Shown piece by piece: positions 15,059-59,593 of a stretch of 64,000 nt of DNA. Below the pieces are notes generated by a model, which saw only the letters and a program-made list of their open reading frames with translations, had not been told where the DNA came from and made no database searches. Position 1 is the first letter of the stretch. Each line of letters opens with the position of its first letter. Origin of the DNA: Polynucleobacter sp. GWA2_45_21 (GTDB lineage: Bacteria > Pseudomonadota > Gammaproteobacteria > Burkholderiales > Burkholderiaceae). A program made the translations under genes and the position numbers. Location of the stretch: positions 1-64,000 of the forward strand of contig NZ_MHZG01000001.1 of the NCBI RefSeq assembly GCF_001830325.1. The letters are read 5' to 3'.

Positions 15059-15195
15059 AACTTCTCCTAAGGGTTAGTTTCTAAGATTGAGTCCTAGCTG
15101 CGCTAAAAAACGCCACCCTGGAAGGCTCAACCCGCGATTTCAGATCTAAATTGACCTGAGAACGAAATTATAGCTTAAATATCAATCACCTAGAC
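15059..15195 (-). promoter_or_regulatory. rpsB promoter and leader
   Basis: A perfect TATAAT lies at 15172-15167 on the minus strand, giving a leader of about 100 nt before rpsB. No good -35 hexamer is seen at the usual spacing. S2 operons in proteobacteria are commonly autoregulated through the leader; I could not identify a defined S2-binding fold here. Confidence 0.5.
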
Positions 15196-15314
15196 CCCTC
15201 CCACCTCACTCAAGCAATCTCAAGCCCCGTGTAAATACCTTGAAATGGACTATTTGCCCAATTTTTGAGCATTACAGATCTACCAAAAACTGCCAAGTCG
15301 TTGATAATCAAGGC

Positions 15315-41503: not shown

Positions 41504-41677
41504 TTACCAGCCTTTAATTGTTGGTACCTGAGGGGCCTGTCTTGGTGTGCTAATAGCTGTATTTAGCTGTGAGTTTATCGGAGCAATTGAACTGCCTTGG
41601 TATTGACCTTGTGGAATATAGAAATTAGTCTGCCTATTGATTATCTGACCAATTAAGTTGACTGTAGTATTTCCAAA
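41504..41677 (-). pseudogene. 3' remnant of an unidentified protein gene
   Basis: Between hsdS and zorD, an open frame on the minus strand with no start codon encodes a protein-like tail of about 55 residues (NLIGQIINRQTNFYIPQG ... VPTIKGW, then stop). It overlaps the last 25 nt of zorD in another frame. It looks like the C-terminal end of a Gln/Asn/Pro-rich, possibly exported protein whose 5' part was lost when the Zorya operon was inserted. Being coding DNA at all is inferred from composition. Confidence 0.45.
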
Positions 41678-44600
41678 TCAAGAGCGCCTCTTAAAATTTG
41701 ATATTTACCCAAAAGCACAAGCAATTCATCCCTTTCCATTAACTTAATGCTTAAATTAATTGACTGCTCTCTCGCCGTTTGATTGAAATACTTATTGGTA
41801 ATAGCAAGCTTTTGAAAGCGCACAGCTGGATACCTAGCTTGATAGGCTGGACTTCCTGCTGAAATTTCTTTTACAGCGTCCCAACCAATCTCTTCTGATC
41901 CTGTATGTTTACATTGACAAAGAAGACCTAGTCCACCCTCTTTAAAAACAACAAGATCAACCCCGCCATCCCCCCTGGCCTTTTTAGTTACCTCGGCTCT
42001 TACTGCGTCCTGAGATAACAATAGTCTACAAAAGACTTCAAAACTGTTTCCATCAAGCCTATCTACATCGTCAATAGTTACATATTTCTGAGTGTTATTT
42101 GATCCTGCCGGGCCAGAGCCTGGCATCAGGCTTGAGATTGATATATCAGACCCTACTCCATCAAGAATATCTCCTGCCAGATCAGATTTAAAACTCATTA
42201 ACTTGTCTAGATTTTCCTCAAAAGTTACAAAGTCGTTCGCAATAATTGTTGGGCAATAAACTTTTACGTTTCTTGCTTGACCAATTCGATACGCCCTATC
42301 AGTTGCTTGCCCTTCTTTAGCTGGATTCCAGGTTCTTGAATAATGAATAACGTGATTTGCCTCCACAATATTTAAGCCAAAGCCGGCAGCAAGCGGGGAA
42401 AGAATGATTACCCCGAATCCAGGGCGCTGTTGAAACTCATCAATCACATCTTGCCGCTCATCGGTATCTCCGTTTATCACTAAAGGGGAAAATTTGAAAG
42501 TGTGGTGGATGAATTTCGCCAGCGCACGCTGTACTTCACGAATTTCTGTAAATACGATTGCCTTCTCCGAGCTCTCTTGAACATTTCTTAGTACTTCAAG
42601 AAGCCACTTCATTTTTGGAGAGTTAGCCTTATGCTGCTCATATCCATTTTTATCGACTTCAAAAGTTCTACTGGGTAAGCAATATGGTTCAGCACATACA
42701 GCTTTCATAAAATGTAAGCTAGCAAATGAGAGCGCCCCACGCCTCTTTGCGTCTTTTTCCATGGCAGCAATCTCAAGCTGCCTTAGGCCATCAGCATATA
42801 GACCCCTCTGATATTGAGAGATATTAATCCTAAGCCTTTCCCTGTCTTTACCCTCAAAGAAGTAAGAATCATTGGAGATATTCATCTTCTTAGGCAATTC
42901 AGAGGCAATTTCCTCCTTCATGCGCCTTAACATTTGCGGATCTATATAAGCCCTTAGTAATGCCTTCATTTCCGCGGCGGAGTCCCCCTTGGATTCGATC
43001 GGCTTACGGTACTTATCACTAAATTCCTGTAAAGAGCCCAATAAGCCAGGCTGTACGAAGTCAAATAAACACCAAAGGTCAGCTAGGGAATTTTCAACAG
43101 GAGTACCCGTACAGGCAATCCTAAATTTTGCTTTTTGCTTTTTAGCTGCTAATGTAACAAGAGCATTTGGAGTTTTTATCTTCTGAGCCTCATCACAGAT
43201 CATGTAAGTAAAATCTTGGCGAGCTAATGAGAATTCATAATCACGCAACACCTCATAAGTTGTCAAGACAACCTTGGCGTCGCCAAGCCATCCGGGCTTG
43301 AGTAGGCTATCAATTTTTTTATTAATCAATGCCTCAGCTATTTGCCCCTTTGGCTGCCTTCTAATATCTAAATTCCGACTATGAAGCAATAATATTTCAG
43401 GGAAATTGTCAAAAAACTTTGCCGCTTCATTAGTCCAGTTTTTCATTAATGCTATCGGAGCAACTACCAATGAAGGCGGATCATTAGCTTTATATTGGTA
43501 ATGTGCTGACAGTAGCGTTAGCAATTGAAGTGTTTTCCCCAAGCCCATATCATCGGCAAGAATCGCCCCTCTAGTGAGGGTGGGCGACCTGGAGTACAGG
43601 AACTGTAACCAAGCCACCCCTTTTAATTGGTGAGACTTAAGTGAAATACCAGGCTTTAAATTTGACGGTAGGGTTGGAATAAAGCCCGACGAGACCGCTA
43701 AAGCTTTGGCACGTCCTTCGGCCTCTTCCGTTTCCGTATGCCTCATTTGAGAAACGTTATCTTTGAGGAGCAGAGTCTCCTTCAAAATCTTTGGCTTTTT
43801 TGGAGGTCCAGGGGGTTTTGGGGGCGTTTCCCCACCACCGCCGCCACCACTTCCGCCGCCGCCAGGTCCATCGGGTGGAATATCAATTGGAGGCTGAGGT
43901 GGTACATCAATTGGGGGTTGCGGTGGAATGTCAACCTCAACCCCTACTTTTAATAGGGTCTGTAGCTCGGCTAACAATTGCTTTGCTGCCTCCAAATTAA
44001 GCGGAAAAGGTAAACGACCATCAATAACAATATCTTCTCTAGCTAATTCTGCGAGCTTAATTTTGTCTTCAAAATTAGATAGCCATTCACCATCCAGTTG
44101 AATGTAAGTCTCAATCCCGTTTGGGGGTAGGCTAACCTTTAATAAAGGTACTAAGTTCTCTGGAATCCATGGGCCCTTGTTGATCGGAGCTATGTATGGA
44201 GAATAAATTGGCTTTGCTTGGCCTATTCCTTCAATTTGATCGCCATAGTTTTCAAGACAGTAGACATCCTCAAAACGAATGAATGAATTAGCTTGATTAT
44301 TCCAAACGGACAGAATTCCTTTGGCATTTTCAAGCTGTGTATAGGTATCACCATCTATATCAATGGTGTGAGTTCGCCACACAAAATATTGTTTTTCGTT
44401 GGCAATTGCCTCATCCATCGCCCCAACTAAGGCAGTCAAATCGCCTATAGATGCTACTACTTCACGCTGAGATTGTGAGGTAAAGTCATCAAAGGTTTTT
44501 GATACAACCGCTATTACCTCGCTAAGCAACCCCTCTTCATTTTGATAGGCCTTTATGAACAATGAAGTTGGAACAATTCCTGCTTCTTGTTTGGCAATTT

Positions 44601-45603
44601 CAATTTGTTTTTCTTTGAGGACTGTATGAGCAAACTCACCCAGCACAGCAAAGGGATTTCTAACGAAGGCTTGAGCTTTAGCTCCGGTGGCTCTTCTTGA
44701 AGGAAACTCTCTCTTAATTACTGCCAGGACCTCCCTTACTGGTTCAGACAGAATAAGTTGTAAGCGCCCACCAGGTGTTGAGAAATCAACATCTTTTGGA
44801 ATTGAATCAGAACTCCACCTATCAAATGCCTGAAGCCATTCTTGAGGTGCACCTTCAAATCCCGGTTCGATAGTTACGACTTCAACCCCAACATAGTCAC
44901 CTTTAGAAAAATAAATATCTAAGGTATCTTTAGTAATAACAACTGTTTCTTTTAAATACTTAGAGAGCGAAGCATTGGCTGATGATGCTAAAGGCCTCAT
45001 CTCACCCCATTTTGACTCATTGGTTAGCTGATTTTTTTCGGAATCATTAATTAAAGAGAAGTCGTCAATCTTCTTAATCAAAAGCCACTCTTGAGGTGGC
45101 ATTAACCAAGTTTCATTACCCCTCTGACAATAGGCACCTACTCTAGTTATTTGGCTGAGTCTTTGATTTCTATCTTCAACGCCATTGATAATGATTTTGA
45201 ATTTTTTATCTGAAACCGTCCCTAGCTCGCTAATTTTCCATATAGACGTTTTAATCTGGGGAATATTGAGCAAAAAATAACTATCCCGATGATCATCGCT
45301 ATGGTTTATGTAGTAACAATCCTCCCAGTAAACATTAAACTTACCGTTTTCAAAAGAGGCTAAACCCTCATCAACGAGCTGGGCAAGGTATAGGGCCTGC
45401 TGTCCTCCACTTTCAAGCTCAAGAGCCCATTCCATCAAATGCTGCTGGGTAACAACCGAATTTAATCCGGAATAAACGTAAACAAATCCAGAGGCACTCA
45501 CTGATGGAGATACCAAATCGCTTGAAAGCAAATCAAAATCACTTTTTGACTTTAATTTTGAATTCACTGTGGGCGAATTAAACAATCTGGAAAGCCAATT
45601 CAT
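41653..45603 (-). CDS. zorD: Zorya type I ZorD: SNF2-type helicase with C-terminal Mrr-like nuclease domain
   Basis: ZorD is the DNA-processing effector of the type I Zorya anti-phage system. The 1316-aa protein has an N-terminal region of unknown fold (1-550), a Pro/Gly-rich linker (about 556-603), a SNF2 ATPase with ADDMGLGKTLQLL (about 681), DEAQ (about 802) and TDRAYRIGQ. At the C-terminus is an Mrr-like domain with GDGGVDLVVF and LCQCKH (about 1205-1235). The start at 45603 is chosen since it forms ATGA with the zorC stop; an ATG four codons upstream exists. Last gene of the operon. Confidence 0.92.
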   Translation of the reverse strand: MNWLSRLFNSPTVNSKLKSKSDFDLLSSDLVSPSVSASGFVYVYSGLNSVVTQQHLMEWALELESGGQQALYLAQLVDEGLASFENGKFNVYWEDCYYINHSDDHRDSYFLLNIPQIKTSIWKISELGTVSDKKFKIIINGVEDRNQRLSQITRVGAYCQRGNETWLMPPQEWLLIKKIDDFSLINDSEKNQLTNESKWGEMRPLASSANASLSKYLKETVVITKDTLDIYFSKGDYVGVEVVTIEPGFEGAPQEWLQAFDRWSSDSIPKDVDFSTPGGRLQLILSEPVREVLAVIKREFPSRRATGAKAQAFVRNPFAVLGEFAHTVLKEKQIEIAKQEAGIVPTSLFIKAYQNEEGLLSEVIAVVSKTFDDFTSQSQREVVASIGDLTALVGAMDEAIANEKQYFVWRTHTIDIDGDTYTQLENAKGILSVWNNQANSFIRFEDVYCLENYGDQIEGIGQAKPIYSPYIAPINKGPWIPENLVPLLKVSLPPNGIETYIQLDGEWLSNFEDKIKLAELAREDIVIDGRLPFPLNLEAAKQLLAELQTLLKVGVEVDIPPQPPIDVPPQPPIDIPPDGPGGGGSGGGGGGETPPKPPGPPKKPKILKETLLLKDNVSQMRHTETEEAEGRAKALAVSSGFIPTLPSNLKPGISLKSHQLKGVAWLQFLYSRSPTLTRGAILADDMGLGKTLQLLTLLSAHYQYKANDPPSLVVAPIALMKNWTNEAAKFFDNFPEILLLHSRNLDIRRQPKGQIAEALINKKIDSLLKPGWLGDAKVVLTTYEVLRDYEFSLARQDFTYMICDEAQKIKTPNALVTLAAKKQKAKFRIACTGTPVENSLADLWCLFDFVQPGLLGSLQEFSDKYRKPIESKGDSAAEMKALLRAYIDPQMLRRMKEEIASELPKKMNISNDSYFFEGKDRERLRINISQYQRGLYADGLRQLEIAAMEKDAKRRGALSFASLHFMKAVCAEPYCLPSRTFEVDKNGYEQHKANSPKMKWLLEVLRNVQESSEKAIVFTEIREVQRALAKFIHHTFKFSPLVINGDTDERQDVIDEFQQRPGFGVIILSPLAAGFGLNIVEANHVIHYSRTWNPAKEGQATDRAYRIGQARNVKVYCPTIIANDFVTFEENLDKLMSFKSDLAGDILDGVGSDISISSLMPGSGPAGSNNTQKYVTIDDVDRLDGNSFEVFCRLLLSQDAVRAEVTKKARGDGGVDLVVFKEGGLGLLCQCKHTGSEEIGWDAVKEISAGSPAYQARYPAVRFQKLAITNKYFNQTAREQSINLSIKLMERDELLVLLGKYQILRGALDLEILQST

Positions 45604-47402
45604 CGTAGGATCCACCCAATTCCATCAGTAAATTTCAAACCAAAGAAACCAAGCTTTTCGGCAACGGGTCCTTTATCTCGCATATATTTGACTATAAACC
45701 TTGCACTCTCTTCTTGATATTCGACACCATTTTCTCTGGCCAATTGAATTGCTTTTGCCTTAGCCTCAAAATACTTAAATAGAACTGGTGGATTTGGCGT
45801 TTCAGCCCCACCCTTGATAGCAACTTCAACATCTATGTTTGTAGGAACAAATGTAGGTATTTCAAGCTCCGCGTCTTTAACGCTAAACTTAATTTCCTCT
45901 GGAGCGGCCGAGTATCCACCCGTAAAGTAATCTCGAACATTAATTGTTTGATTTAAATTTGATGCTCCCGTGATGCGAACCGATGAAGGCGTAATGCCAT
46001 ATTCTTTGCGCAATTTTGCTGGCGCTCTATGAGCATCTGTCCAACCAGGAGTATGGGCAAAGTCCATACCCCCCGTCCTATATTTCTCTTTCAAACCTTT
46101 TCTTGAAGTGCTTGAATAATGATATTTGTCAGTAATATTGAATTGATTCTCACCATGCCTATAAACATAACATCCGCCACCAATACTAAAATCCACGATC
46201 AAGCAATTTCCAATCGTCATTAAAAAGGCATCATTTCCTGGATTTTGATCTTCGCGCAACTGGGAATAAGCATGCCCATCCCTTTTAAAGACCTTCTTAT
46301 AGTCCGCCCTACTTTCTACGAGCCCCCGAGAAGTCGGACCCAAAGCTAGCCTTGAAGATTTGACTTGAGGGATAAATTTCAACCAGAAATTTAATCTTTC
46401 ATCGTCAGCATGACCCCGCTCTTTAAGCAACTTGAAGAATAGACGTAAATTGGTTTCATGAACCCAATTAAGAACCATTGCTAGAGCTGGCTTACTAACA
46501 AATTTCCACTTTGATCCAGCTAATTCATGCCCCTCAGGACTAGCCCATAAATCTAACGCATACTCTTTCAGCATTTCATTAACGCTTGTATCCGAACAAA
46601 TCGCATACCTATCCAAAACAGCGCATAAACCTTTATCTCGATAAATTTTGTGTTTATCAAACAATTTCAGTAATTTAGGGATCGCCTTTTTAAAGCCAAA
46701 TTCATCAAAATTTAATACGTTTTGAAGGCATGTAACAAAGAGCCTCTCCCAGAACCAACTATTTGAGGAAATTTGAAGATCTCCAGAGATCCTTAGCACC
46801 AAGTCTTCATGCCCGTCAAACCACTGCTTAGCAAACTGATCACAGGGATTTTTACCCAATAGCTCGATGTTTTCATCTATCGCCTTCATCCAAGAAAGCC
46901 TTAACTCTGTAGAACCTAAAACTGAGCTCCATGTAGAGATCAAAAAGCGTCTAATGTCCTCAAGGGATCCTTCAAACTGTTGTCGATTTGGTGAGTTATT
47001 AGGACTTAATTCAAAATAAGCCCCCATTACACCGCGCCAAGTAATCAACATGTCTCTACCGGAAGTACATTTAGCAGAATAGTTATCAAGTAGCGCTTTA
47101 AGTTTGCCCTCATTATTAAAAAGGGTGCTTTCCAGCGTTGATCCAACAGGTTTAGCTAAGGCAAATGCAATTAAATCAATGTCTACTTCATCTAATTGAG
47201 CCTCTCCAGACAAAAAACGGGAGGCTGCTTTAAGAGCAAGAGCCTCAGGAGGGCTACCGGCATTTTTGAATTTCTTTTTTATTTCTTCAAAGACTAGTTC
47301 AAGTGAATTTAACTGCTCTTTTTGTTGAAAAAGCTCTTTCCGAGGCGCTAAAGCACCTGTAATTTGATTAAGAGATTGTCTTAGACGATCTAATTCCAAC
47401 AT
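45600..47402 (-). CDS. zorC: Zorya type I ZorC (EH_signature-type protein)
   Basis: ZorC is the type I-specific partner, thought to work with ZorD on invading DNA once the ZorAB motor is triggered. The 600-aa protein is soluble, with a helical N-terminal two thirds (EH_signature-like region) and a C-terminal beta-containing part. It has no recognisable enzymatic motif. The assignment rests on length, composition and its position between ZorB and ZorD. The ATG overlaps the zorB end by 13 nt and the stop overlaps zorD, so all four genes are translationally linked. Confidence 0.88.
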   Translation of the reverse strand: MLELDRLRQSLNQITGALAPRKELFQQKEQLNSLELVFEEIKKKFKNAGSPPEALALKAASRFLSGEAQLDEVDIDLIAFALAKPVGSTLESTLFNNEGKLKALLDNYSAKCTSGRDMLITWRGVMGAYFELSPNNSPNRQQFEGSLEDIRRFLISTWSSVLGSTELRLSWMKAIDENIELLGKNPCDQFAKQWFDGHEDLVLRISGDLQISSNSWFWERLFVTCLQNVLNFDEFGFKKAIPKLLKLFDKHKIYRDKGLCAVLDRYAICSDTSVNEMLKEYALDLWASPEGHELAGSKWKFVSKPALAMVLNWVHETNLRLFFKLLKERGHADDERLNFWLKFIPQVKSSRLALGPTSRGLVESRADYKKVFKRDGHAYSQLREDQNPGNDAFLMTIGNCLIVDFSIGGGCYVYRHGENQFNITDKYHYSSTSRKGLKEKYRTGGMDFAHTPGWTDAHRAPAKLRKEYGITPSSVRITGASNLNQTINVRDYFTGGYSAAPEEIKFSVKDAELEIPTFVPTNIDVEVAIKGGAETPNPPVLFKYFEAKAKAIQLARENGVEYQEESARFIVKYMRDKGPVAEKLGFFGLKFTDGIGWILR

Positions 47403-48124
47403 TTACCAAACTTCTTATCTGACAAATCAACGCGCTTAGGATTTTCACTATTAAATTTTGCCTCTTCGCCAACTTGCCAGAACTCAAGCTTAAGAACTAC
47501 AACTCGATTTTCTGCTTTTGAGGGTTTGAAGGAATTAAAAGAGAATCCGCCTACTAAAAATAAGTCTCTAATCTCATTTTGAACAGCCTGAGAAATTGGA
47601 ATAGACGACCCTAATTCAGGCGAGAGTGAGCACACCACCTGCTGACTACGCCTTAAAGATAGATCTAAGTTGAAGAGATAGTCCCCATCGGTATCGGTAT
47701 AGCCCTCTACGACAACTCGCCTGAAGTACTGCTTACAAGCAGAAGATTTAACAGCGCTCAATATAGAAGGGATATATTTCCTTAAAAAATTAACTCCTTC
47801 TGGACTGATATTGGACTGTCCGGACTGGAAATTAACAATCGATCCTAGATTAATACGAATCGCATCAACGGAGTTGTAATCAAGCTTAGCTTCAGGAAAC
47901 AAATTTTTTGCCTCACCCCTCAACTCATCAAAGCACTGACCAACAGCCTTTGTTCGCTCGAAAGACTCCTTTGTTGAATATTTCTTTTCCAGTGAAACAA
48001 TAGTGACCGCCATAACAACTAAAAATAAAGTCATACAAGCAGTCATCAAATCAGAGAAGGAAATCCAGAAGGGCTTTTCAGCCTCATCTTTTCTTGACCT
48101 TTTAGGCGAGCGACCAAACAACAT
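47390..48124 (-). CDS. zorB: Zorya ZorB (MotB-like, OmpA-type peptidoglycan-binding)
   Basis: ZorB is the stator partner of ZorA and carries the ion-translocating aspartate. The 244-aa protein has a basic N-terminus and a single transmembrane helix (about residues 22-44, FWISFSDLMTACMTLFLVVM) with Asp25 in the MotB-equivalent position. Its C-terminal OmpA-like domain includes VVVEGYTDTDGDYLFNLDLSLRRSQ (about 137-161), which binds peptidoglycan. No flagellar genes are nearby, so MotB itself is excluded by context. TAATG overlap with zorA. Confidence 0.93.
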   Translation of the reverse strand: MLFGRSPKRSRKDEAEKPFWISFSDLMTACMTLFLVVMAVTIVSLEKKYSTKESFERTKAVGQCFDELRGEAKNLFPEAKLDYNSVDAIRINLGSIVNFQSGQSNISPEGVNFLRKYIPSILSAVKSSACKQYFRRVVVEGYTDTDGDYLFNLDLSLRRSQQVVCSLSPELGSSIPISQAVQNEIRDLFLVGGFSFNSFKPSKAENRVVVLKLEFWQVGEEAKFNSENPKRVDLSDKKFGKCWN

Positions 48125-50043
48125 TAATTATTTTCCTTGCGTAATTTCAGCACGGAAGCCACCATTACCTCAACAGCACTACTCAATGAACTTGCTGCGG
48201 AACTGAGAATCTGAACATTTTCTTTGTTCATTTTTTCAACGGAAGACAGCATTTCAGCATTAAATGTTTCAAATGAATCCTTGAGTACTGAATTGATCTT
48301 ATCGAGATACTGTGTGCTAGATGCCTCAGCTGTTCTCATGGTGCCTATGACACGCTCCATTTCACCAACAATCTTCTCACCTACGCCGGCCTCTCTTCTC
48401 GCAATTTCTACGAGTCCAGTAAGCTCAAGAACATACTTCTCATTTTCACGTTTTGACTGCTGGTAGCCATCAAATAGCTCCCTAACCATTGAGCTGGTTG
48501 ACTGAAGTGTTGAAGCCGCTTCTTCCATTTTTGTAGTAATACCCTTGCTTTGCTCAAGAACATTATTAACAGCATCACCGGCATTTGTGAATTTATCAGC
48601 CGCAATTTTCATATTCAATGCACCATCATTCATTCCAGAAATGGCGCTTGTGGAAACGCGTTGGATCTCGCTAATATTTTGTTCAGTCTTAATTGTGGAA
48701 TTTTTTATATCTTCAATTAACTTAGAAACATTTTCTGATAATCCACCGTAAAGAGCTTTGGTAGAGTCTGTCAAGTTTTTGGTTCTGTCTCTATCTTGGT
48801 CGATCTGAGCTCCGCGCTCAGTCGAGATACTTCTAATTGCCGCCTCTAATTCAGATAAAACTTTTTTCATAGTTTCATCCATGGCATTTTTAGTTTCGCC
48901 CTGTTGTTGAATAATTAATTCCTTCAACTCGTTAATAAACGCCCTTAACTGCTCATTCATTCTTTCTTGGGCCTGTGCAGCCCGCTCCATAGACTCCTCT
49001 AGCTTTTTAGACATTTGGTTTGTTGCATCCTCTCCAGCGGTAGAGATGTCGCGAACCAAGCCAGTTAGCGCTGTTTGAACGGATACCATAGCATCGGAGG
49101 AACGTTGAATTGCCTCATTAACCCCCTGTATCTGAGAACCAAACGTTTGATCCATTTTCTCCATGAAGCCAGCTATCAAGTTTTCCAGAAGACTTGAAAC
49201 TGCCTGACCTTGCCCGCTTGAAAAGTCTTGCACTACGCCGCCAATTTTTTCCAGAGGGGCTTTCAGTGCCTCACCAATAGAGCCACTAATTTGAACTGAT
49301 TGTTTATTCATCAATTCCTCAAGATCTCTAATCAGAGCATCTTTAAGGCTTGCTGCATGTGTAGCGGAACTTTCAGAGGCTTTTACAAGGCGAGCGAGAT
49401 AGTCCTCTCCAACTCCAGCTGCATAGATACTATCGAGTGATTTATTTAACTCTTCTACTTGCTGATAGCACTGGTTTAATACTCGTTTTTCGAAAAAAGT
49501 AATGAGAATTGCAAAGAAAATCGCAAATCCTGAACCAATAAATGCCGAGGTTACTTCGCCAAGCAATAAATTTAAAGTGTCACTAGCAGCTTCAGAATTA
49601 AATTTACCAAGACCCCACACTAACCCGCTGAAGGTTCCAATAATTCCAACGCCCGTCAAAATCCCTGGCAAGTGCTTATAAAAGTCTGCGTTGACATAGG
49701 TGTCAACAATTGACTCCTTATTGAAATACATTTCTGAGCTAGAGGTAGCTCGAATGCTGCTCTTCTCACCATCCTCGCTTGTCATTACATGAAGGCTTTG
49801 GCGATACTCTCGCCATAAATTGAGAAACGGTTTTTCACGAAATAAGTCTGCTAGCTCCTCCGGTATAACTGCACCAAAGTCTCTTAAAGATAGTTCAGCT
49901 AATAGTGCATTTATTTCTATCAACCGAGCTTTTAGTTGGTTGGCTGGGATTTGATAATGTTTATAGTAAAGATAAGATGGGCCCAAAACAAATATTGAAA
50001 CAATACCCAAAATTACGGGGTTTAAATGCGAAAGAAAATTCAT
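48124..50043 (-). CDS. zorA: Zorya ZorA (MotA/ExbB-like motor with long coiled-coil tail)
   Basis: ZorA forms the pentameric proton-driven membrane motor that senses phage-induced envelope damage. The 639-aa protein has transmembrane helices at about 8-26, 125-145 and 164-185. The second and third form the MotA/TolQ/ExbB core (GILTGVGIIGTFSGLVWGL; EVTSAFIGSGFAIFFAILI). A cytoplasmic coiled-coil tail of about 440 residues then follows, the part thought to transmit the signal to ZorC/ZorD. AAGGA precedes the ATG. First gene of the operon. Confidence 0.94.
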   Translation of the reverse strand: MNFLSHLNPVILGIVSIFVLGPSYLYYKHYQIPANQLKARLIEINALLAELSLRDFGAVIPEELADLFREKPFLNLWREYRQSLHVMTSEDGEKSSIRATSSSEMYFNKESIVDTYVNADFYKHLPGILTGVGIIGTFSGLVWGLGKFNSEAASDTLNLLLGEVTSAFIGSGFAIFFAILITFFEKRVLNQCYQQVEELNKSLDSIYAAGVGEDYLARLVKASESSATHAASLKDALIRDLEELMNKQSVQISGSIGEALKAPLEKIGGVVQDFSSGQGQAVSSLLENLIAGFMEKMDQTFGSQIQGVNEAIQRSSDAMVSVQTALTGLVRDISTAGEDATNQMSKKLEESMERAAQAQERMNEQLRAFINELKELIIQQQGETKNAMDETMKKVLSELEAAIRSISTERGAQIDQDRDRTKNLTDSTKALYGGLSENVSKLIEDIKNSTIKTEQNISEIQRVSTSAISGMNDGALNMKIAADKFTNAGDAVNNVLEQSKGITTKMEEAASTLQSTSSMVRELFDGYQQSKRENEKYVLELTGLVEIARREAGVGEKIVGEMERVIGTMRTAEASSTQYLDKINSVLKDSFETFNAEMLSSVEKMNKENVQILSSAASSLSSAVEVMVASVLKLRKENN

Positions 50044-50066: not shown

Positions 50067-50231
50067 TTAAATCATTATTAATTTTATTGACACCCGTCTA
50101 GATACTACCCTTTTGGCAGGCTCAATTAGTGAGCTCTTACTATTGTTCAGTAGACCCATAATCTTGCAGTCCACGTCATAAACACGGTCATAAAACACTT
50201 CCCCACAACTTTCTTTTTTAACTTTTCTCAT
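50067..50231 (-). CDS. possible 54-aa ORF upstream of zorA
   Basis: ATG at 50231 opens a 54-codon basic frame (MRKVKKESCGEVFYDRVYDV ...) ending 23 bp before zorA. It has no ribosome binding site, and the WYL-type inverted repeat at 50119-50136 lies inside it, so it is more likely leader DNA than a gene. Listed only because it is in the right place for an accessory peptide. Confidence 0.2.
   Translation of the reverse strand: MRKVKKESCGEVFYDRVYDVDCKIMGLLNNSKSSLIEPAKRVVSRRVSIKLIMI
50119..50136. promoter_or_regulatory. candidate WYL-regulator operator upstream of zorA
   Basis: GGCTCA-ATTAG-TGAGCTC has the same GCTCA-N5-TGAGC geometry as the sites at 53438-53456 and 54518-54537. It lies about 80 nt before zorA and 140 nt before the divergent MerR gene. 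Confidence 0.55.
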
Positions 50232-50245
50232 AGTAACAGTAATTA

Positions 50246-50267
50246 TTTACAGTTACAGTGTTAATAT
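50246..50267 (+). promoter_or_regulatory. conserved MerR promoter element, copy 1
   Basis: TTTACA ... AGTGTTAATAT, 22 nt, ends exactly 6 nt before the MerR ATG and matches 59158-59179 at about 19 of 22 positions with no gap. The TAATAT looks like a -10, which would place transcription start at or next to the ATG (leaderless mRNA); no ribosome binding site is present. An imperfect dyad (GTAACAGTAA ... TTACAGTTAC) sits just upstream at 50233-50255. Confidence 0.55.
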
Positions 50268-50273
50268 ATTTCT

Positions 50274-50681
50274 ATGGAAGAAAAAAAATACACTTTTGAA
50301 GAACTCTGCACCCTAACCGGCGTCAGCTCAAGAACCCTGCGCTATTACATCCAAATTGCTCTGGTAGATAAGCCTATAGGACAAACCCGGGGGGCTCACT
50401 ATTTGAGCCTTCACATTGAGAAGATCCTTCGTATCAAGCAATTAACTGAAGCGGGTATATCACTTGAGCGAATACGTGAAGTGCTTTCTGGCTCGCCAAT
50501 GCCGCTACCTGAGCGGGCTAAAAAGCCGGGAGACATTTCGGTACGCACTCACCTATGGGTAGGAGAAGGTATTGAAATAGAAGTCTCGGCTGAAACAGCG
50601 GGTTTGAGCCCAGAGCAATTACGTCAATTTTTAAAGGGCGTGATGCAGGTATACGAACAAGTCAAAAAGGATGCGCAATGA
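50274..50681 (+). CDS. MerR-family transcriptional regulator, module 1
   Basis: The 135-aa protein has the MerR winged helix-turn-helix at residues about 7-75 (FEELCTLTGVSSRTLRYYIQIALVDKP ... AGISLERIREVLSG). A short C-terminal part follows (THLWVGEGIEIEVSAETAGLSPEQLRQFL, then a helix). No cysteines suited to metal binding are in the C-terminal half, so it is not a metal sensor of the classic kind. Its stop overlaps the start of the VIT/vWA gene (ATGA), indicating coupled expression. A close paralogue lies at 59186-59593. Confidence 0.88.
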   Translation: MEEKKYTFEELCTLTGVSSRTLRYYIQIALVDKPIGQTRGAHYLSLHIEKILRIKQLTEAGISLERIREVLSGSPMPLPERAKKPGDISVRTHLWVGEGIEIEVSAETAGLSPEQLRQFLKGVMQVYEQVKKDAQ

Positions 50682-53005
50682 TCGTCATTGAAAAGGTAAA
50701 AAACGTATTTTCTAGCGATAAAAAGAAGTTGGTCCTGCAATCATCCTGCGCAACTGGTGTAGCCAATGGTTTATTGCTCGATTTGACCATACGCCAGCAC
50801 TATAAAAACAACACCAACAAAACTTTGGAGGTTGTTTACTCATTTCCCATGGCTTGGGGTGCCACATTCATGGGAATGCAGGCAGAGATTGGTGGCCAAC
50901 GCTTGGTCGGCACTGTGATTGAAAAAGCCAATGCAACCGAACAGTATGAAAAAGCGATAGCTGATGGCGATGCCCCCATCATGATTGAAAAGAATTCTGA
51001 TGGTCTATATACCGCTAACCTCGGAAACCTTGAACCCAATGAAGATGTAGTCATTGAATACATCTACTCGCAACTTCTCAAGTACGAGCAAGGCTCGATG
51101 CGCATCAGCATTCCTACGGTCATCGCTCCGCGCTATGGCGATGCTAAAAAGGGTGGTATTGAAGATCGCCATAGTGTTGAGGCTGATTTCTTAACTGAAT
51201 ACCCATTCACCCTATCTCTGCAATTAACCGGTGGCCTAGAAAAAGCCGTCGTTGAATGTCCATCGCATCAAGTGCAAGTGGCTAAACAAGATAAAAGCTT
51301 ATTAGTCTCGATTGAACGTGAAGCTTTTTTAGATCGCGACTTTATCCTCAATTTAACTGGCCTACAAAATCAATCTTTTTATATTGTCACACCAGATAAA
51401 CAACTCGGACCCGATGGTTGCACTGTCTTAGCAAGTTTTTGCCCACCAACCATCGACAATCAAAAAGATAGCTCACTAGATCTGAAGATCTTGGTTGATT
51501 GTTCAGGCTCCATGGAGGGTGATAGCATTCAATCGGCAAAACGCGCCCTGCATCACGTATTGAGCCACTTAACTGCAGAAGATCGATTTAGTTACTCTAA
51601 GTTTGGCAATCATACCAACCACCTATTTTCTAAAGTTAAGCCAGCCGACCAATTTCATATTTCTGCCGCCTCTTTATTGATAGAGAACACAAATGCCGAT
51701 ATGGGTGGCACTGAAGTAGAAGCGGCATTGCAATCGACTTTCGATCTAATGGGTGCCCAAGGTACGGCAGATGTTCTTCTCATTACCGATGGTGAAGTTT
51801 GGTGTACAAATGAAACCATTGCCGCAGCCAAAGAAAGTGGGCATCGCATCTTTGCCGTAGGAGTAGGCTCCGCGCCAGCGGATACCCTTCTAAAAGAATT
51901 GGCTGAAATGTCCGGCGGCGCATGTGAGCTAATCTCGCCCAAAGAAGATATTGAGAAAGCGATCGTGCGCATGTTCCACCGGATTCGCCAGCCTAGAGCA
52001 TGCAATATTGAAATTGACTGGGGTCACCCAGAACAACCAGAATGGACTGTTGGTACCAATACCGCCATCTTTAGTGAGAATACAACTCATGTATTTGCTG
52101 GGTTTAAATCCGCCCCATCAAAGCCAGCCTTGCTAAGTTACCAATTTGGCAATAGCTCACAACGCACAGGCATTGGGGCTTCTCAGATCACACACTCTAA
52201 ATCTCATAACCTACCTCGTTTGGCAGCGGCGCAAAGAATCAAAACTGCGCCCGAAGGAGATCAAATTGCTTTGGCCCTTAGCTATCAACTCATTACAGAG
52301 AAGACCAATTGTTTATTGGTTCATATTCGCGCCGAAGACCAAAAGGCAACTGAATTGCCGGAGCTGATGACCATAGCGCAGATGCAAGCGACTGGATGGG
52401 GCGGCGCGGGTTCAGTCCTAGATGGATCACCTCATATTCTATTTAGCAAGAGCAAATCATTTACCTCCAAATGCGCTACGCTTAATCTCTCTAGCGCCAC
52501 CTATGCTTCGTTTGACATGCCAAGGGTATTTAGATCAAGCCCAATCACAGGGGATTCACCCATCTCATTACAAGAATCTATAAGTGGAAATCCAGATTAT
52601 TACGACATCCCGGCATTCCTCAGAAAGCAGGCAGCCGAGTCAGAACAGGCCGCTCCAAAAATCAAATATCTTGATCCTACTGATGTTATTGAGATAGCGA
52701 ATACCATTATTTTGAGCAAGACACTTTTTGCCAATTTTGTTAAAACAATGGATCAGTCCTTGTTTGATGCTGAAGTATCAGAAGTGTTTAATAGTTGCTT
52801 GAAGTTTTTATCCAAAGAGCAATTGTGGACCACCGCTCTAGCGTGGTTACTCCTCCATCTAGAGGAGTCTGGCAATTGGAATGAGAATACTAAGAGCGCT
52901 ATTCAAGAACTTACCAACGAGATGGATGCTATTGAGTTAAGTAAAGCATTGCGAGTTTTCAATACCAAAATGAACAACATTGGTATGCATGAATGGCTCT
53001 CTTAA
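50678..53005 (+). CDS. VIT and von Willebrand A domain protein, module 1
   Basis: The 775-aa protein has an N-terminal VIT domain (about residues 15-140; family marks such as YSFPMAWGATFMGM and YTANLGNLEPNEDVVIEYIY). A vWA domain follows (about 265-435) with an intact MIDAS: DCSGSM from Asp272, GGTEVE, and LLITDGE. The C-terminal 300 residues are unassigned. There is no signal peptide or transmembrane helix, so it is probably cytosolic, unlike many VIT/vWA proteins. It is coupled to the MerR gene. Role unknown; metal-dependent adhesion-type protein binding is the family expectation. Confidence 0.88.
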   Translation: MIVIEKVKNVFSSDKKKLVLQSSCATGVANGLLLDLTIRQHYKNNTNKTLEVVYSFPMAWGATFMGMQAEIGGQRLVGTVIEKANATEQYEKAIADGDAPIMIEKNSDGLYTANLGNLEPNEDVVIEYIYSQLLKYEQGSMRISIPTVIAPRYGDAKKGGIEDRHSVEADFLTEYPFTLSLQLTGGLEKAVVECPSHQVQVAKQDKSLLVSIEREAFLDRDFILNLTGLQNQSFYIVTPDKQLGPDGCTVLASFCPPTIDNQKDSSLDLKILVDCSGSMEGDSIQSAKRALHHVLSHLTAEDRFSYSKFGNHTNHLFSKVKPADQFHISAASLLIENTNADMGGTEVEAALQSTFDLMGAQGTADVLLITDGEVWCTNETIAAAKESGHRIFAVGVGSAPADTLLKELAEMSGGACELISPKEDIEKAIVRMFHRIRQPRACNIEIDWGHPEQPEWTVGTNTAIFSENTTHVFAGFKSAPSKPALLSYQFGNSSQRTGIGASQITHSKSHNLPRLAAAQRIKTAPEGDQIALALSYQLITEKTNCLLVHIRAEDQKATELPELMTIAQMQATGWGGAGSVLDGSPHILFSKSKSFTSKCATLNLSSATYASFDMPRVFRSSPITGDSPISLQESISGNPDYYDIPAFLRKQAAESEQAAPKIKYLDPTDVIEIANTIILSKTLFANFVKTMDQSLFDAEVSEVFNSCLKFLSKEQLWTTALAWLLLHLEESGNWNENTKSAIQELTNEMDAIELSKALRVFNTKMNNIGMHEWLS

Positions 53006-53010
53006 CTATA

Positions 53011-53073
53011 ATGAACAATAAATTTTTGTTGCTTGTAGTTGTTGCGTCGCAGTGGGTTGCTTGTTTTGAATAG
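53011..53073 (+). pseudogene. truncated signal-peptide or lipoprotein leader
   Basis: Five bases after the VIT/vWA stop, ATG opens a 20-codon frame MNNKFLLLVVVASQWVACFE followed by a stop. It reads as a signal peptide with a lipobox-like VAC and nothing behind it. In module 2 an intact secreted-protein gene occupies the same place (61917), so this may be its decayed counterpart. Confidence 0.4.
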
Positions 53074-53101
53074 TTAGTGCGGCCCAGTGGATTGGGTACG
53101 T

Positions 53102-53404
53102 TCATCTGCGAACATAAGAAAGGATATATGCCTTTCTCTTACTAACCTCACCAGTCAAAGCAATCCCAGCACCCTCATGCACCAACGCCATTGGCTCTTG
53201 CATCATTGCCTTATCCGACAAATAAGGATTTCCATTGGAGTCACGCAACCTGAATTTAGGTAATCCCAAGATCTTGGCGCAATCTACAAAAGCGCCAACC
53301 ATAAAAAATGGGTTAATCCGATGCCTATAGTGATCGTGAACTTGGATCTGCAAAGGTAGCAATATGGTTATCAAAATTACCCCAAAAATCATTATTTTTT
53401 CCAT
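53102..53404 (-). CDS. small membrane-anchored or secreted protein
   Basis: The 100-aa protein begins with a hydrophobic segment (MIFGVILITILLPLQIQV, residues 5-22), then a soluble part with two regions rich in charged and Gly residues and a single Cys. No domain is recognised. It is convergent with the VIT/vWA gene and divergent from the WYL regulator, sharing the intergenic region that carries the AGCTCA-N5-TGAGCT repeat, so it may be under the same control. No ribosome binding site is visible. Confidence 0.55.
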   Translation of the reverse strand: MEKIMIFGVILITILLPLQIQVHDHYRHRINPFFMVGAFVDCAKILGLPKFRLRDSNGNPYLSDKAMMQEPMALVHEGAGIALTGEVSKRKAYILSYVRR

Positions 53405-53437
53405 TTTTTAATATTTATTTAAATTGTGATGTGCCAC

Positions 53438-53456
53438 TAGCTCAATAAATGAGCTA
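53438..53456. promoter_or_regulatory. candidate operator of WYL regulator 1
   Basis: TAGCTCA-ATAAA-TGAGCTA is a perfect inverted repeat with 7-nt arms and a 5-nt spacer. It lies 52 nt upstream of the WYL gene and 33 nt upstream of the divergent small gene. The same site with spacer TTTTT occurs before the repeat-protein gene. Confidence 0.7.
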
Positions 53457-53508
53457 TAAATATTCATGTGTATTAGGTCAATATATTTATATTGTTAGAA
53501 AGCTGAAA

Positions 53509-54477
53509 ATGAGCACCATAGAGCGTCTGCATAAGATCAAATACATGATCCAGGTTCGCAAATGCGTACCTCGCCAAGATTTTCTTGATGAACTCGAAAT
53601 CTCTCCCGCGACCTTTAAACGCGACTTGGAATATCTGCGCGATCGCATGAATGCCTCAATCATCTATGACCGATCTGATGGAGGTTATAAATTTGAAAAA
53701 CCCAATGCTGGAGAAAAATTCGAATTGCCAGGCCTATGGTTTTCTGAAAAAGAAGCCACCGCCCTAGCCCTCATGCAACATCTACTCTCATCCCAAGATA
53801 AGGGTGGTCTTATTGGTCCCCATATTGAGCCCTTAATGTCAATCATTGACGGGATCTTAGGCCAGTCATCCGCCACCTCTAAAGAGTTGCGTAAAAGGAT
53901 TAGGGTCTTTGGAATGGCCTCACGCAAAAGCGCGATTGAAAACTTTGAAGAAATTGGTAGCGCTCTACTCAAACGTGAGCGCCTACATATTGCGTATTAC
54001 TCCAAGGGCACCAATCAAACCACAGAACGCGAGATCTCTCCTCAGCGCCTCATTCATTATCGGGATAATTGGTACCTAGATGCCTACTGCCATCTACGTA
54101 ATGAGCTACGTAGCTTTGCAGTTGATGGAATTAAATCAGCCGCATTAACCAACAAAAAGGCGGATGATATTTCCGAAAAAGAGCTTCACGAAAACTTTGC
54201 CGAAAGTTATGGCATCTTCTCCGGAAAGGCAACCCAAAGAGCAAAGCTGCGGTTTTCCCCGGAGCGCGCCCGCTGGGTTTCTGGAGAGCAGTGGCATGGG
54301 CAACAAACTGGCAAATTTGACGACAAAGGCTTTTACATCCTGGAGTTTGATTACAACCAAGATCCCGAGCTAGTCATGGATATTTTGAAACATGGCTCTG
54401 AAGTTGAGATTTTGGCACCAGCAAGCCTTAAAACCAAGGTGGTTAATGAACTCAAAAAGGCGCTGTCTAAATATTAG
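53509..54477 (+). CDS. WYL-domain transcriptional regulator 1
   Basis: The 322-aa protein has an N-terminal helix-turn-helix (about residues 5-65, FLDELEISPATFKRDLEYLRDRM), a WYL domain (about 150-220, with QRLIHYRDNWYLDAYCH) and a C-terminal WCX-type domain. Such proteins (BrxR, CapW, PafBC types) bind nucleic acid or nucleotide ligands and often control defence loci. The start at 53509 matches that of the paralogue at 57919; the frame is open further upstream. An inverted repeat in its promoter is probably its own operator. Confidence 0.9.
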   Translation: MSTIERLHKIKYMIQVRKCVPRQDFLDELEISPATFKRDLEYLRDRMNASIIYDRSDGGYKFEKPNAGEKFELPGLWFSEKEATALALMQHLLSSQDKGGLIGPHIEPLMSIIDGILGQSSATSKELRKRIRVFGMASRKSAIENFEEIGSALLKRERLHIAYYSKGTNQTTEREISPQRLIHYRDNWYLDAYCHLRNELRSFAVDGIKSAALTNKKADDISEKELHENFAESYGIFSGKATQRAKLRFSPERARWVSGEQWHGQQTGKFDDKGFYILEFDYNQDPELVMDILKHGSEVEILAPASLKTKVVNELKKALSKY

Positions 54478-54517
54478 ACTGCATGGACTAAATATATTTT
54501 CTATTAGCCGATGATCC

Positions 54518-54537
54518 TAGCTCATTTTTTGAGCTTA
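54518..54537. promoter_or_regulatory. candidate WYL operator before the repeat-protein gene
   Basis: TAGCTCA-TTTTT-TGAGCTTA repeats the site at 53438-53456 with one arm mismatch and the same 5-nt spacer, including the extra C before it. It lies 36 nt before the ATG of the secreted repeat protein. Confidence 0.65.
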
Positions 54538-54573
54538 AGACACCCTAAGATGGAGTCATAGCACATAGGAGAA

Positions 54574-54885
54574 GTGATGAAAAAATTAATTGCAATGGCA
54601 CTTATTGGATTGACATTGAATAGTTTTGCTCAGACTATCAACTGGAATAGCAGCCCACTGAATTATCAAAATAGCGAACTAAACTATAACAACAGTCCTT
54701 TAAATTATCAAAACAGTCCGCTCAATTACCAAAACAGTTCATTAAATTACAACTCAAGCAATGGGGTTTATGACAATAGTGGCAATCGGATTGGTTATGA
54801 AGTTCAATCACCGCAGGGCGTAACCAATATTTTTGATAACAACGGCAATCGGATTGGCTACTCACCAAGCCAAAGGTCAAAATAA
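54574..54885 (+). CDS. small secreted Asn-rich repeat protein
   Basis: The 103-aa protein has a signal peptide (residues 1-19, ending SFAQ), then five tandem heptad-like units of the type NSPLNYQ (about residues 25-60), then two copies of DN-x-GNRIGY (about 68-76 and 89-97). It is rich in Asn, Tyr, Ser and Gly and lacks cysteine. A good AGGAG site precedes the ATG. Similar repeat proteins occur in other freshwater betaproteobacteria as far as I recall. Function is unknown; a surface or periplasmic role is inferred. It follows a candidate WYL operator. Confidence 0.8.
   Translation: MMKKLIAMALIGLTLNSFAQTINWNSSPLNYQNSELNYNNSPLNYQNSPLNYQNSSLNYNSSNGVYDNSGNRIGYEVQSPQGVTNIFDNNGNRIGYSPSQRSK
54640..54761 (+). 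repeat. tandem 21-bp coding repeats
   Basis: Imperfect 21-bp units encode NSPLNYQ-like heptads in frame. Units differ mainly at third positions, which suggests selection on the protein sequence and not recent slippage. Confidence 0.75.
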
Positions 54886-56938: not shown

Positions 56939-57919
56939 TTAATTTTGATAAACAGCTACCGCCTTCACCAATACCTCAGATACATGATTTCTTAGGGCTG
57001 GAGGATCCACCACCTCGACATCGGCACCTTGGCGCAGAATATCCAAAGTCAACTCCCTCTCATCGCTATAAGGAATTTCTAATAGATAAGAGCCATCTTC
57101 CATCACTTCACCACGCTGCTTGGGATGCCATAACTCTTTAGAAACCCACCGGGCTCTAAAGGGCGTAAATTTGAGCCTAGCAATTTGATATTTTTTGCCA
57201 GCAAAGATCCCATAAGAAGATTCCAATTCGGACACCAAAACATTCTCATCAACCGATACAGCAGGCTTCTCCAGCCCCTTTATCATCTCAATGGCATCTA
57301 GTGAGAATGTTCGCAGATCATCGCGATCGTGACAAAAAGCATCTAAGTACCAGTTATCGCGGTAGTAAACCAATCTCTGGGGTGATACCTCGCGCTCACT
57401 GATGCTTTCGTTATATCTTTGCAAATAACGAATATGAATCCGTTTTCTTGCCAACAAAGCATTGGCAATTAATTCAAAATAGGCCGGGGATGTTCTACGT
57501 CTGGCTAAACCTACAATCTTAATTCTCTTGGCCACCTCTTTCAGAGAAAAACTACTTTCATCTAGCAACTTTTCTAAGCGACTGCGAATAGGATTAACCT
57601 GCGCATTCACCATGCCATTGGGTTCAATATTTTTTAATAACTCAATAACGGATAGCCAAGAATGAATCTCTGATTCATTTAACCAAAGTCCAGGTAGCGA
57701 AGTTAATGAATCAACGCCATCCTTCTTGCCATTAAGAACATACCCTTTAAGATCTGCATTCCACTCAATTGGCGCACCCAATCGATCTCGCAAATACTCT
57801 AGGTCTCGCCTAAAGGTCGCCCGAGAAACTTCAAGTACTTTCAAAAAGTGTTCAGCGGTAACTACTTGGCGCTCTCCTAACAATTTTTGAATCTTATAAA
57901 ACCGTTCCGTTCTATCCAT
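56939..57919 (-). CDS. WYL-domain transcriptional regulator 2
   Basis: The 326-aa protein is a paralogue of the one at 53509-54477: helix-turn-helix FLKVLEVSRATFRRDLEYLRDRLG (about residues 24-47), WYL domain with PQRLVYYRDNWYLDAFCH (about 185-205), and a C-terminal WCX region. It is transcribed ahead of the DUF262/HNH gene and divergently from the outer-membrane barrel gene. Regulation of a linked defence nuclease by a WYL protein is a recurring arrangement; here it is inferred from position. Confidence 0.9.
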   Translation of the reverse strand: MDRTERFYKIQKLLGERQVVTAEHFLKVLEVSRATFRRDLEYLRDRLGAPIEWNADLKGYVLNGKKDGVDSLTSLPGLWLNESEIHSWLSVIELLKNIEPNGMVNAQVNPIRSRLEKLLDESSFSLKEVAKRIKIVGLARRRTSPAYFELIANALLARKRIHIRYLQRYNESISEREVSPQRLVYYRDNWYLDAFCHDRDDLRTFSLDAIEMIKGLEKPAVSVDENVLVSELESSYGIFAGKKYQIARLKFTPFRARWVSKELWHPKQRGEVMEDGSYLLEIPYSDERELTLDILRQGADVEVVDPPALRNHVSEVLVKAVAVYQN

Positions 57920-57992
57920 TAATTTGCCTTACGTCCTCGTTATGAAATTTATTTAGATTTATTTCATTTTGAGTAGTCACAGTCTCATGGGG

Positions 57993-58005
57993 TGAGCCTG
58001 GCTCA
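57993..58005. promoter_or_regulatory. TGAGC/GCTCA inverted repeat in the WYL2-porin intergenic region
   Basis: TGAGCC-T-GGCTCA is a perfect 13-nt inverted repeat using the same GCTCA half-site as the WYL1 operators but in the opposite orientation. A further TGAG-N10-CTCA pair lies at 57970-57987. It is 40 nt before the barrel gene start. Confidence 0.4.
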
Positions 58006-59185: not shown

Positions 59186-59593
59186 ATGGAAACTCAAAAA
59201 CTCACCTTTGATGAACTTTGCGCCTTATCGGGCTTAAGTTCGCGCACTCTGCGTTACTACACCCAAATTGGCTTAATTGATAAGCCTATAGGGCAAACAA
59301 GAGCAGCTCACTACACCAGCCTTCATCTTGAAAAAGCCCTGCGCATCAAGCAATTAACTGAGTCAGGTATATCACTAGAGCGGATACGCGAAGTTTTATC
59401 CGGCGAGACTTTACCCCTCCCCGTTCGCACCAAAAAACCAGGGCAAATTGAAGTGAAAACCCATCTTTGGATCGCTGATGGTGTTGAACTCCAAGTCTCC
59501 CCAGAATCGGCAAATTTAAGCCCAGAAGCATTACGTGAATTTTTGCAAAGCGTGATGCACTCCTATGAGCAGATTACAAAGGATAAGAAATGA
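59186..59593 (+). CDS. MerR-family transcriptional regulator, module 2
   Basis: The 135-aa paralogue of the protein at 50274 has the same length and layout: MerR helix-turn-helix (FDELCALSGLSSRTLRYYTQIGLIDKP ... SGISLERIREVLSG) and the C-terminal THLWIADGVELQVSPESANLSPEALREFL segment. Both DNA and protein are close to copy 1. There is no ribosome binding site before the ATG. The stop overlaps the downstream VIT/vWA start as ATGA, as in module 1. Confidence 0.88.
   Translation: METQKLTFDELCALSGLSSRTLRYYTQIGLIDKPIGQTRAAHYTSLHLEKALRIKQLTESGISLERIREVLSGETLPLPVRTKKPGQIEVKTHLWIADGVELQVSPESANLSPEALREFLQSVMHSYEQITKDKK

Follow-up and report, generated by a model that had tools for sequence, protein, structure and literature searches.

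Which regulator, if any, acts on the short inverted repeat that recurs across a defence island of the freshwater bacterium Polynucleobacter sp. GWA2_45_21? The DNA concerned is the first 64,000 nucleotides of contig NZ_MHZG01000001.1 (hereafter the window), which carries a Zorya operon, two genes for WYL-domain regulators (WYL1 and WYL2) and a gene for a protein with NSPLNYQ repeats. The original prediction had placed the repeat before WYL1, the NSPLNYQ gene and zorA, and had proposed that a WYL protein, in the manner of the repressors BrxR and CapW, controls both Zorya and an exported protein. Control of defence islands is little known. Our analysis indicates that the repeat, GCTCA-N5-TGAGC, is very probably the landing site of a WYL regulator, and we consider it the probable operator of a WYL-WCX subfamily in Polynucleobacter and a few relatives, through which a local regulon would be activated.

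All three predicted repeats were present (Table 1); the copy before the NSPLNYQ gene ends one base earlier than had been given, and the copy upstream of zorA lies close to the predicted distance of about 80 nucleotides. The set was incomplete, as an exact copy within the MerR-like gene and a one-mismatch copy upstream of WYL2 had been missed. Eight places in the window match the motif with at most one mismatch, against 3.04 expected, a number reached in 2 of 100 shuffles. The copy within the MerR-like coding sequence, which looked like an internal promoter of the VIT/VWA gene, may be coincidental, because its presence coincides with the codons for AHY[LV]S.

A scan of the whole genome (2,112,926 bases, 19 contigs) gave 10 exact copies, against 3 for the reversed control pattern. 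Four of the 10 fall within 4.4 kb of the window locus, far above chance: with the 409 sites in 230.6 Mb of the 117 congeners that lack a WYL1 match as background, the Poisson probability of four sites in 4415 bp is about 1.6e-10, for a region chosen after the fact. Three others are on contig C2 (24525, 24787 and 27079). The last is 45 bp upstream of a gene for a WYL protein 67% identical to WYL1, and the other two precede a membrane-like open reading frame (ORF) of 63 amino acids and a DnaB/RadA-like ORF, as judged by eye. It was this independent cluster at a second WYL gene that first pointed to a tie between the motif and WYL genes. As for its surroundings, terminase-like and ParB/methylase-like ORFs and a type I restriction-like operon were recognised by eye, the HsdM-like member of the operon clustering with a Pfam-confirmed HsdM; the stretch around the paralogue (L015, C2:16001-35000) suggests that a phage-derived or satellite element carries a separate copy of the regulon there.

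The same association was found across the genus. We compared 186 genomes, including that of the window, and scored WYL1 matches at E up to 1e-60; 69 genomes had a match, most of them a single one. Exact sites averaged 7.29 per genome in the 59 genomes with a WYL protein at least 65% identical to WYL1 versus 3.50 in the 117 without a match (p=5e-14), and the reversed control averaged 1.29 versus 1.08. When the site was counted together with a -10 element (the composite, described below), the means were 5.39 versus 1.07 (p=1.5e-22; control, 0.24 versus 0.14). The 10 genomes with lower-identity matches only had 4.9 sites (p=0.09) and 4.4 composites (p=0.0005) on average.

We also assembled 62 WYL loci (1,187,249 bases in total): the window, the C2 stretch and 60 fetched regions, each of at most 20 kb and surrounding a WYL gene. 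They hold 159 exact sites and no control site, a density 75-fold above the WYL-less background, and in 48 of the 62 a site lies at most 400 bp before the WYL match. As the original prediction had anticipated for orthologous loci, the site is conserved: where the identity to WYL1 is 65% or more, an exact copy lies within 130 bp upstream of the WYL gene in 45 of 51 cases. Five of the six exceptions (L051, L069, L073, L089 and L091) have a site 505-2127 bp upstream, which in four of the five precedes a gene of the NSPLNYQ family, and the sixth (L095) has sites at -2701 and -2438. The arms of the operator were fixed by the exact search; independent evidence comes from the -10 element, the flanks and an unselected palindrome count. 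In that count, made like the unselected -10 count over the 51 loci with WYL at 65% identity or more, this palindrome occurred in 45 loci, and the next best of all perfect palindromes with 5-bp arms and spacers of 2-11 in 5, shifted readings excluded. The per-locus listing of sites and genes covers loci with WYL at 50% identity or more.

Being a short inverted repeat, the palindrome might also be an RNA hairpin, a terminator or a chance repeat. We regard the likelihood of this as negligible, since 135 of 146 island sites lie outside called ORFs, the density is 75-fold over background, and 129 of the 146 have a -10 element at a fixed distance on at least one side, which puts the palindrome upstream of the expected transcription start.

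We hold with high confidence that the link between site and WYL is strong, and several findings nevertheless weigh against a strict coupling. Among relatives 38-53% identical, an exact site was found in 4 of 68 and a one-mismatch site in 3 of 68 (72 of 80 loci were scanned; L148-L151, 73-94% identical and three of them named Polynucleobacter, were set apart from the 68 counted). Four WYL proteins of the genus with 55-56% identity had no exact site in the fetched stretch. Regulon sites also persist in genomes that gave no WYL in a profile search: they lie next to umuC in five genomes (G003, G014, G055, G071 and G091), before cluster c4 genes in three of these (G055, G071 and G091; loci L271, L278 and L273) and before an NSPLNYQ-family gene in G153. 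Such sites may be relics of a lost regulator or may belong to a second binder. No WYL domain of any kind was found in 20 genomes without a WYL1 match, and a profile search of 15 such genomes (7 common to the 20) gave one C-terminal WYL fragment, in G180, so that the label 'without WYL' is imperfect.

Two side observations belong here. G021 and G042, whose WYL proteins are 55-57% identical with no site in the fetched stretch, have 11 and 8 composites elsewhere. The composite next to umuC (C11:183657-183671, L017; relatives L264, L235, L242, L267, L259 and L230) faces a conserved small ORF of 43-47 amino acids, MELLNNFNG-like, an arrangement shared by genomes in which the search gave no WYL.

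The sites that persist by umuC, before c4 and before an NSPLNYQ-family gene without a detectable WYL would be explained if the site belonged to another, core regulator and the WYL genes were merely among its targets; sites in WYL1-less genomes also show the -10 geometry at 0.153 per direction, against 0.092 by chance. We consider this very improbable, because composites per genome track the presence of WYL (5.39 versus 1.07) and the sites cluster around WYL genes. In other groups, too, WYL genes 46-51% identical are preceded by the site (exact sites upstream in L157, L166, L167 and L176, from records not named Polynucleobacter).

How the regulator would act was examined in 127 promoters, chosen because an exact site with complete flanks lies 20-130 bp upstream of a gene from one of 11 clusters (132 rows minus duplicates). 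Oriented toward the gene, A occupies site position +27 in 125 and T position +31 in 117, and the two occur together, at a spacer of 11, in 116. TAnnnT lies at exactly 11 bp in 75 promoters and at any other spacing from 0 to 30 in at most 19. The place of the -35 element (17-bp spacing) falls inside the palindrome and has 0.65 of 6 matches to TTGACA, and no extended -10 was evident in the 127 (TG in 6). When the 146 sites in the 51 loci were read blind to the target, A and T stood at the expected -10 position on one side or both in 129, and on both sides in 52, against a chance rate of 0.092 per direction.

A -10 element at a fixed 11 bp with the -35 element missing is the geometry reported for promoters activated by DriD, at which the palindromic site has a constant distance to the -10 and overlaps a very poor -35 (preprint PMC12340889; here and below, published systems are described from portions of the cited papers). 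On this ground activation is favoured over repression, and we think it quite likely that the WYL regulator activates its targets. The BrxR/CapW-type repressor implied by the original prediction fits the position of the site poorly: the BrxR site lies downstream of the -10 (PMC9122601) and the CapW site over it (PMC9122588), whereas here the site is 11 bp upstream, in the place of the -35. A repressor that occupies the -35 region, keeping polymerase out until it is released by a phage signal, is, in our view, unlikely. It would agree with the literature, in which the WYL regulators known to date from phage defence act as repressors (PMC10693628, 2023), with the overlap of operator and core promoter, and with the operator that the WYL gene carries at its own promoter. 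A repressed promoter would still need a -35 or an extended -10, however, neither of which is present, and repression does not require base-exact spacing.

In the window itself, the composite matrix ranks the promoter of the small c3 ORF first in the 64 kb, followed by the NSPLNYQ and WYL2 promoters. The zorA and WYL1 promoters are exceptions to the constant -10 spacing. The plus-strand side toward WYL1 scored 15.6, because its -10 is degenerate (ATGTGT, with the conserved A lost), and this counts against the proposed promoter rule; 36 of 42 WYL promoters in the selected set keep the A and T. On these scores, with 29.2 for the WYL2 promoter, WYL2 may share or relay control of the regulon.

WYL1, WYL2 and the C2 paralogue are the three members of this WYL family in the genome, each a candidate binder of the site. 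WYL1 has both a WYL domain and a C-terminal WCX domain, and its start at 53509 is consistent with the orthologues. Pfam reported no helix-turn-helix family for WYL1 and a sub-threshold HTH_11/DeoR match for WYL2; an S-x-ATFKRDL-like stretch is conserved, and recognition-helix residues, in an alignment compared by eye, gave no clear split by motif presence. DriD (8tp8) matches weakly in sequence (E 2.5e-5). In the WYL proteins studied here, residues R174, Y189, R197 and R201 align at a constant offset with R181, Y196, R204 and R208, through which PafB contacts single-stranded DNA (PMC11804915); in 39 sequences R174 and Y189 are invariant and R197 and R201 at least 90% conserved. This conservation suggests a single-stranded nucleic acid as the ligand and, by extension, an island that would be switched on by phage attack or DNA damage. 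Such residues alone do not separate activators from repressors, which tempers the case for activation.

For the regulon, ORFs were called in the 62 loci with a simple script and clustered (1474 ORFs), and a gene was counted when an exact site ended between 130 bp before and 70 bp after its called start. Sites were found before 33 of 48 genes of the NSPLNYQ family (c1), 19 of 21 of c3, 17 of 20 of c4, 12 of 12 of c10, 8 of 9 of c16, 7 of 7 of c30 (DUF4407), 4 of 10 of c13 (HD domain) and, within the WYL cluster, 48 of 66. Representatives of c1, c3, c4, c10 and c16 had no Pfam match. NSPLNYQ relatives occur in 60 of the 186 genomes, in 47 of 69 with a WYL1 match and 13 of 117 without, so that the family goes with WYL and is not strictly tied to it. 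The predicted control of Zorya and an exported protein by WYL is in this respect supported in part by conserved sites, and it was drawn too narrowly: the regulon is best read as local, taking in the WYL gene, members of the NSPLNYQ family and other small proteins, and the defence genes nearby. As a separate observation, a DUF3857/transglutaminase-like gene (c11, 12 loci; L060:3869-5764) adjoins c3 in L053 and L060.

Composites also precede other defence genes: a type II C5 methyltransferase (23 bp, L063), a type I HsdM (89 bp, L091), a type III methyltransferase (127 bp, L082) and a weakly matching MmeI-like methyltransferase (144 bp, L089). Methyltransferase genes in L060 and L064, and other large genes likewise, have a site without a canonical -10. 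Beside the same MerR gene, HmaA occupies the place of Zorya in G044, where a composite 253 bp away is directed at it, and a PDC-S37/Hhe-like gene does so in G011 with a composite at 278 bp. The list was built from site-bearing defence genes and so gives no rate.

Matches to zorA occur in 12 of the 186 genomes; those of G136 and of the WYL-bearing G057 are fragments without the 5' end. Every intact-5' zorA in a genome with a WYL1 match (the window, G154, G067, G004 and G151) has an exact site 76-88 bp upstream, whereas none of the five in other genomes has a site with 0 or 1 mismatch within 700 bp (Fisher p=0.008, relatedness not corrected for). The site is kept although the upstream DNA of the five has diverged. 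G154 and G004 have no divergent gene start within 300 bp, so only zorA can be served there; in the window, the MerR direction has no canonical -10 (TTCAGT). It is likely from these comparisons that the Zorya operon belongs to the WYL regulon, less surely than for other members, since zorA departs from the fixed spacing.

Most of the zorA promoters depart: the best zorA -10 has a spacer of 12 in the window and in G154, and of 20-22 in G004, G067 and G151, a weaker one at spacer 11 being found only in G004 (AAATCT). Further points against membership are that the G151 zorA is on a different contig from its WYL genes, that zorA lineage is confounded with WYL presence (identity 50-100% versus 45-48%), and that the clean contrast becomes 5/5 versus 0/4, because the site-less G180 holds a C-terminal WYL fragment at a contig end. 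The off-rule spacing in four of the five, together with the canonical -10 that the G067 site has toward a divergent c16 gene, could mean that the regulon is real and Zorya outside it, the site at 50120 serving the MerR side, being a relic or standing idle for zorA. Against this stand the retained sites upstream of all five the one-sided arrangement in G154 and G004 and, in the window, the non-canonical -10 toward MerR, and we judge it rather doubtful. As a side observation, one contig of G154 (L135, G154:C27) holds zorA-C-like genes, a WYL gene, two c1-type genes and, by eye, a tyrosine-recombinase-like ORF (14151-15494), a gene set that suggests mobility.

As the likely explanation, we propose that a WYL dimer, as the palindrome would imply, binds in place of the -35 element, 11 bp upstream of a TAnnnT-type -10, and by analogy with DriD would activate sigma70 RNA polymerase, one palindrome often serving two divergent genes. 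The targets would be the WYL gene, NSPLNYQ-type and other small exported or membrane-like proteins, and adjacent defence cargo, here Zorya and elsewhere Hma or type I, II or III DNA methyltransferases. Single-stranded nucleic acid would be the signal, and phage attack or DNA damage would switch the island on. The fullest form of this proposal, in which landing defence systems and a conserved set of small proteins come under one switch that senses single-stranded DNA, through a WYL activator and its portable composite promoter (GCTCA-N5-TGAGC-N11-TAnnnT), is tentative, and we would put it slightly below an even chance. If true, a defence island would be turned on by activation and not released from repression; a base-exact promoter code over interchangeable defence systems would give a testable rule to predict regulated defence genes, and the case would tie uncharacterised exported repeat proteins to phage defence.

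Table 1. Candidate operators, predicted -10 elements and genes of the window
Feature	Position	Strand	Remarks
Candidate WYL1/c3 operator, TAGCTCA-ATAAA-TGAGCTA	53438-53456, core 53440..53454	.	Between divergent WYL1 (+) and small ORF 53102-53404 (-); minus-strand position weight matrix (PWM) score 35.1, best of the window
Candidate NSPLNYQ gene operator, TAGCTCA-TTTTT-TGAGCTT	54518-54536, core 54520..54534	+	PWM 32.5
Candidate zorA/MerR-like operator, GGCTCA-ATTAG-TGAGCTC	50119-50136, core 50120..50134	.	76 bp to zorA start codon (-), 139 bp to MerR-like gene (+)
Fourth exact motif copy, within MerR-like coding sequence	50394..50408	+	269 bp upstream of VIT/VWA gene
Candidate WYL2 operator, one mismatch, GCTCACCCCATGAGA	57983..57997	-	63 bp upstream of WYL2; PWM 29.2
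Candidate zorA -10, TAGTAT	50102..50107	-	Spacer 12, not 11; TAATAT at same place in G154
Predicted small-ORF (c3) -10, CACAAT	53423..53428	-	Canonical spacer 11
Predicted NSPLNYQ gene -10, TAAGAT	54546..54551	+	Canonical spacer 11
Predicted WYL2 -10, CAAAAT	57966..57971	-	Spacer 11
WYL1 regulator, WYL + WCX domains	53509..54477	+	Pfam PF13280 1.9e-21, PF25583 3e-16, scanned on longer ORF from 53449
WYL2 regulator	56939..57919	-	42% identical to WYL1
NSPLNYQ repeat protein, signal-peptide-like N terminus (judged by eye)	54577..54885	+	No Pfam match
Small ORF, 100 amino acids, cluster c3	53102..53404	-	Site before 21/21 island copies: 19 exact, 2 one-mismatch
zorA, type I	48124..50043	-	PADLOC ZorA1 2e-187
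zorB	47390..48124	-	PADLOC ZorB1 1.9e-76
zorC	45600..47402	-	PADLOC ZorC1 6.7e-89, Pfam EH_Signature
zorD	41653..45615	-	PADLOC ZorD1 E=0
MerR-like regulator	50274..50681	+	Pfam MerR_1 8.5e-16
VIT/VWA protein	50678..53005	+	Pfam VIT 2.2e-22, VWA 1.3e-13

The four zor genes are adjacent on the minus strand, and their matches to ZorA1, ZorB1, ZorC1 and ZorD1 identify the operon as a type I Zorya. The window contains two pairs made up of a MerR-like gene and a long ORF behind it, at 50274-53005 (VIT/VWA) and at 59186-61908, the second long ORF being linked to the VIT/VWA ORF by clustering; a third MerR copy is at C2:187745. A gene with a GmrSD_N domain (55048-56787), which matches PADLOC HEC-05, adjoins WYL2.

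Neither this site nor control of Zorya by a WYL protein turned up in earlier work, in a literature search that was thin on subscription journals. The VPI-2 island of Vibrio cholerae likewise has a WYL gene (VC1772) and Zorya together, although there the WYL gene precedes ddmDE and its role was described as still under investigation, and the available portion of the review describes no operator or Zorya control (PMC12409362). RptR resembles the present case as a single regulator over a defence island, but it is a small repressor, not named as a WYL protein, that acts on direct repeats containing TAGCTA (PMC12255303). BrxR (BREX) and CapW (CBASS) are WYL regulators beside defence systems with palindromic operators, the spacer of the BrxR palindrome also being 5 bp (PMC9122601, PMC9122588); they repress, from sites placed differently relative to the -10, as described above. 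The mycobacterial WYL activators PafBC and SiwR act through the -26 region upstream of the -10 (PMC11804915, PMC10693628), and by our count the proximal half-site here is also near -26, in addition to the alignment with the PafB residues that contact single-stranded DNA. PafBC differs in being a heterodimer of two WYL proteins (PMC11804915), and SiwR is described with one adjacent operon (PMC10693628); control of defence systems is not reported for either in the portions of these papers available to us. The closest likeness in promoter architecture is to the Caulobacter activator DriD, also a WYL-WCX protein with a palindrome at a constant distance from the -10 and a poor -35 (PMC12340889). 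Activators of the DriD type are homodimeric, respond to single-stranded DNA and contact RNA polymerase. DriD recognises ATACGAC-N7-GTCGTAT and its reported targets are DNA-damage genes, whereas the putative operator described here is GCTCA-N5-TGAGC and would serve a local island regulon that includes anti-phage systems.

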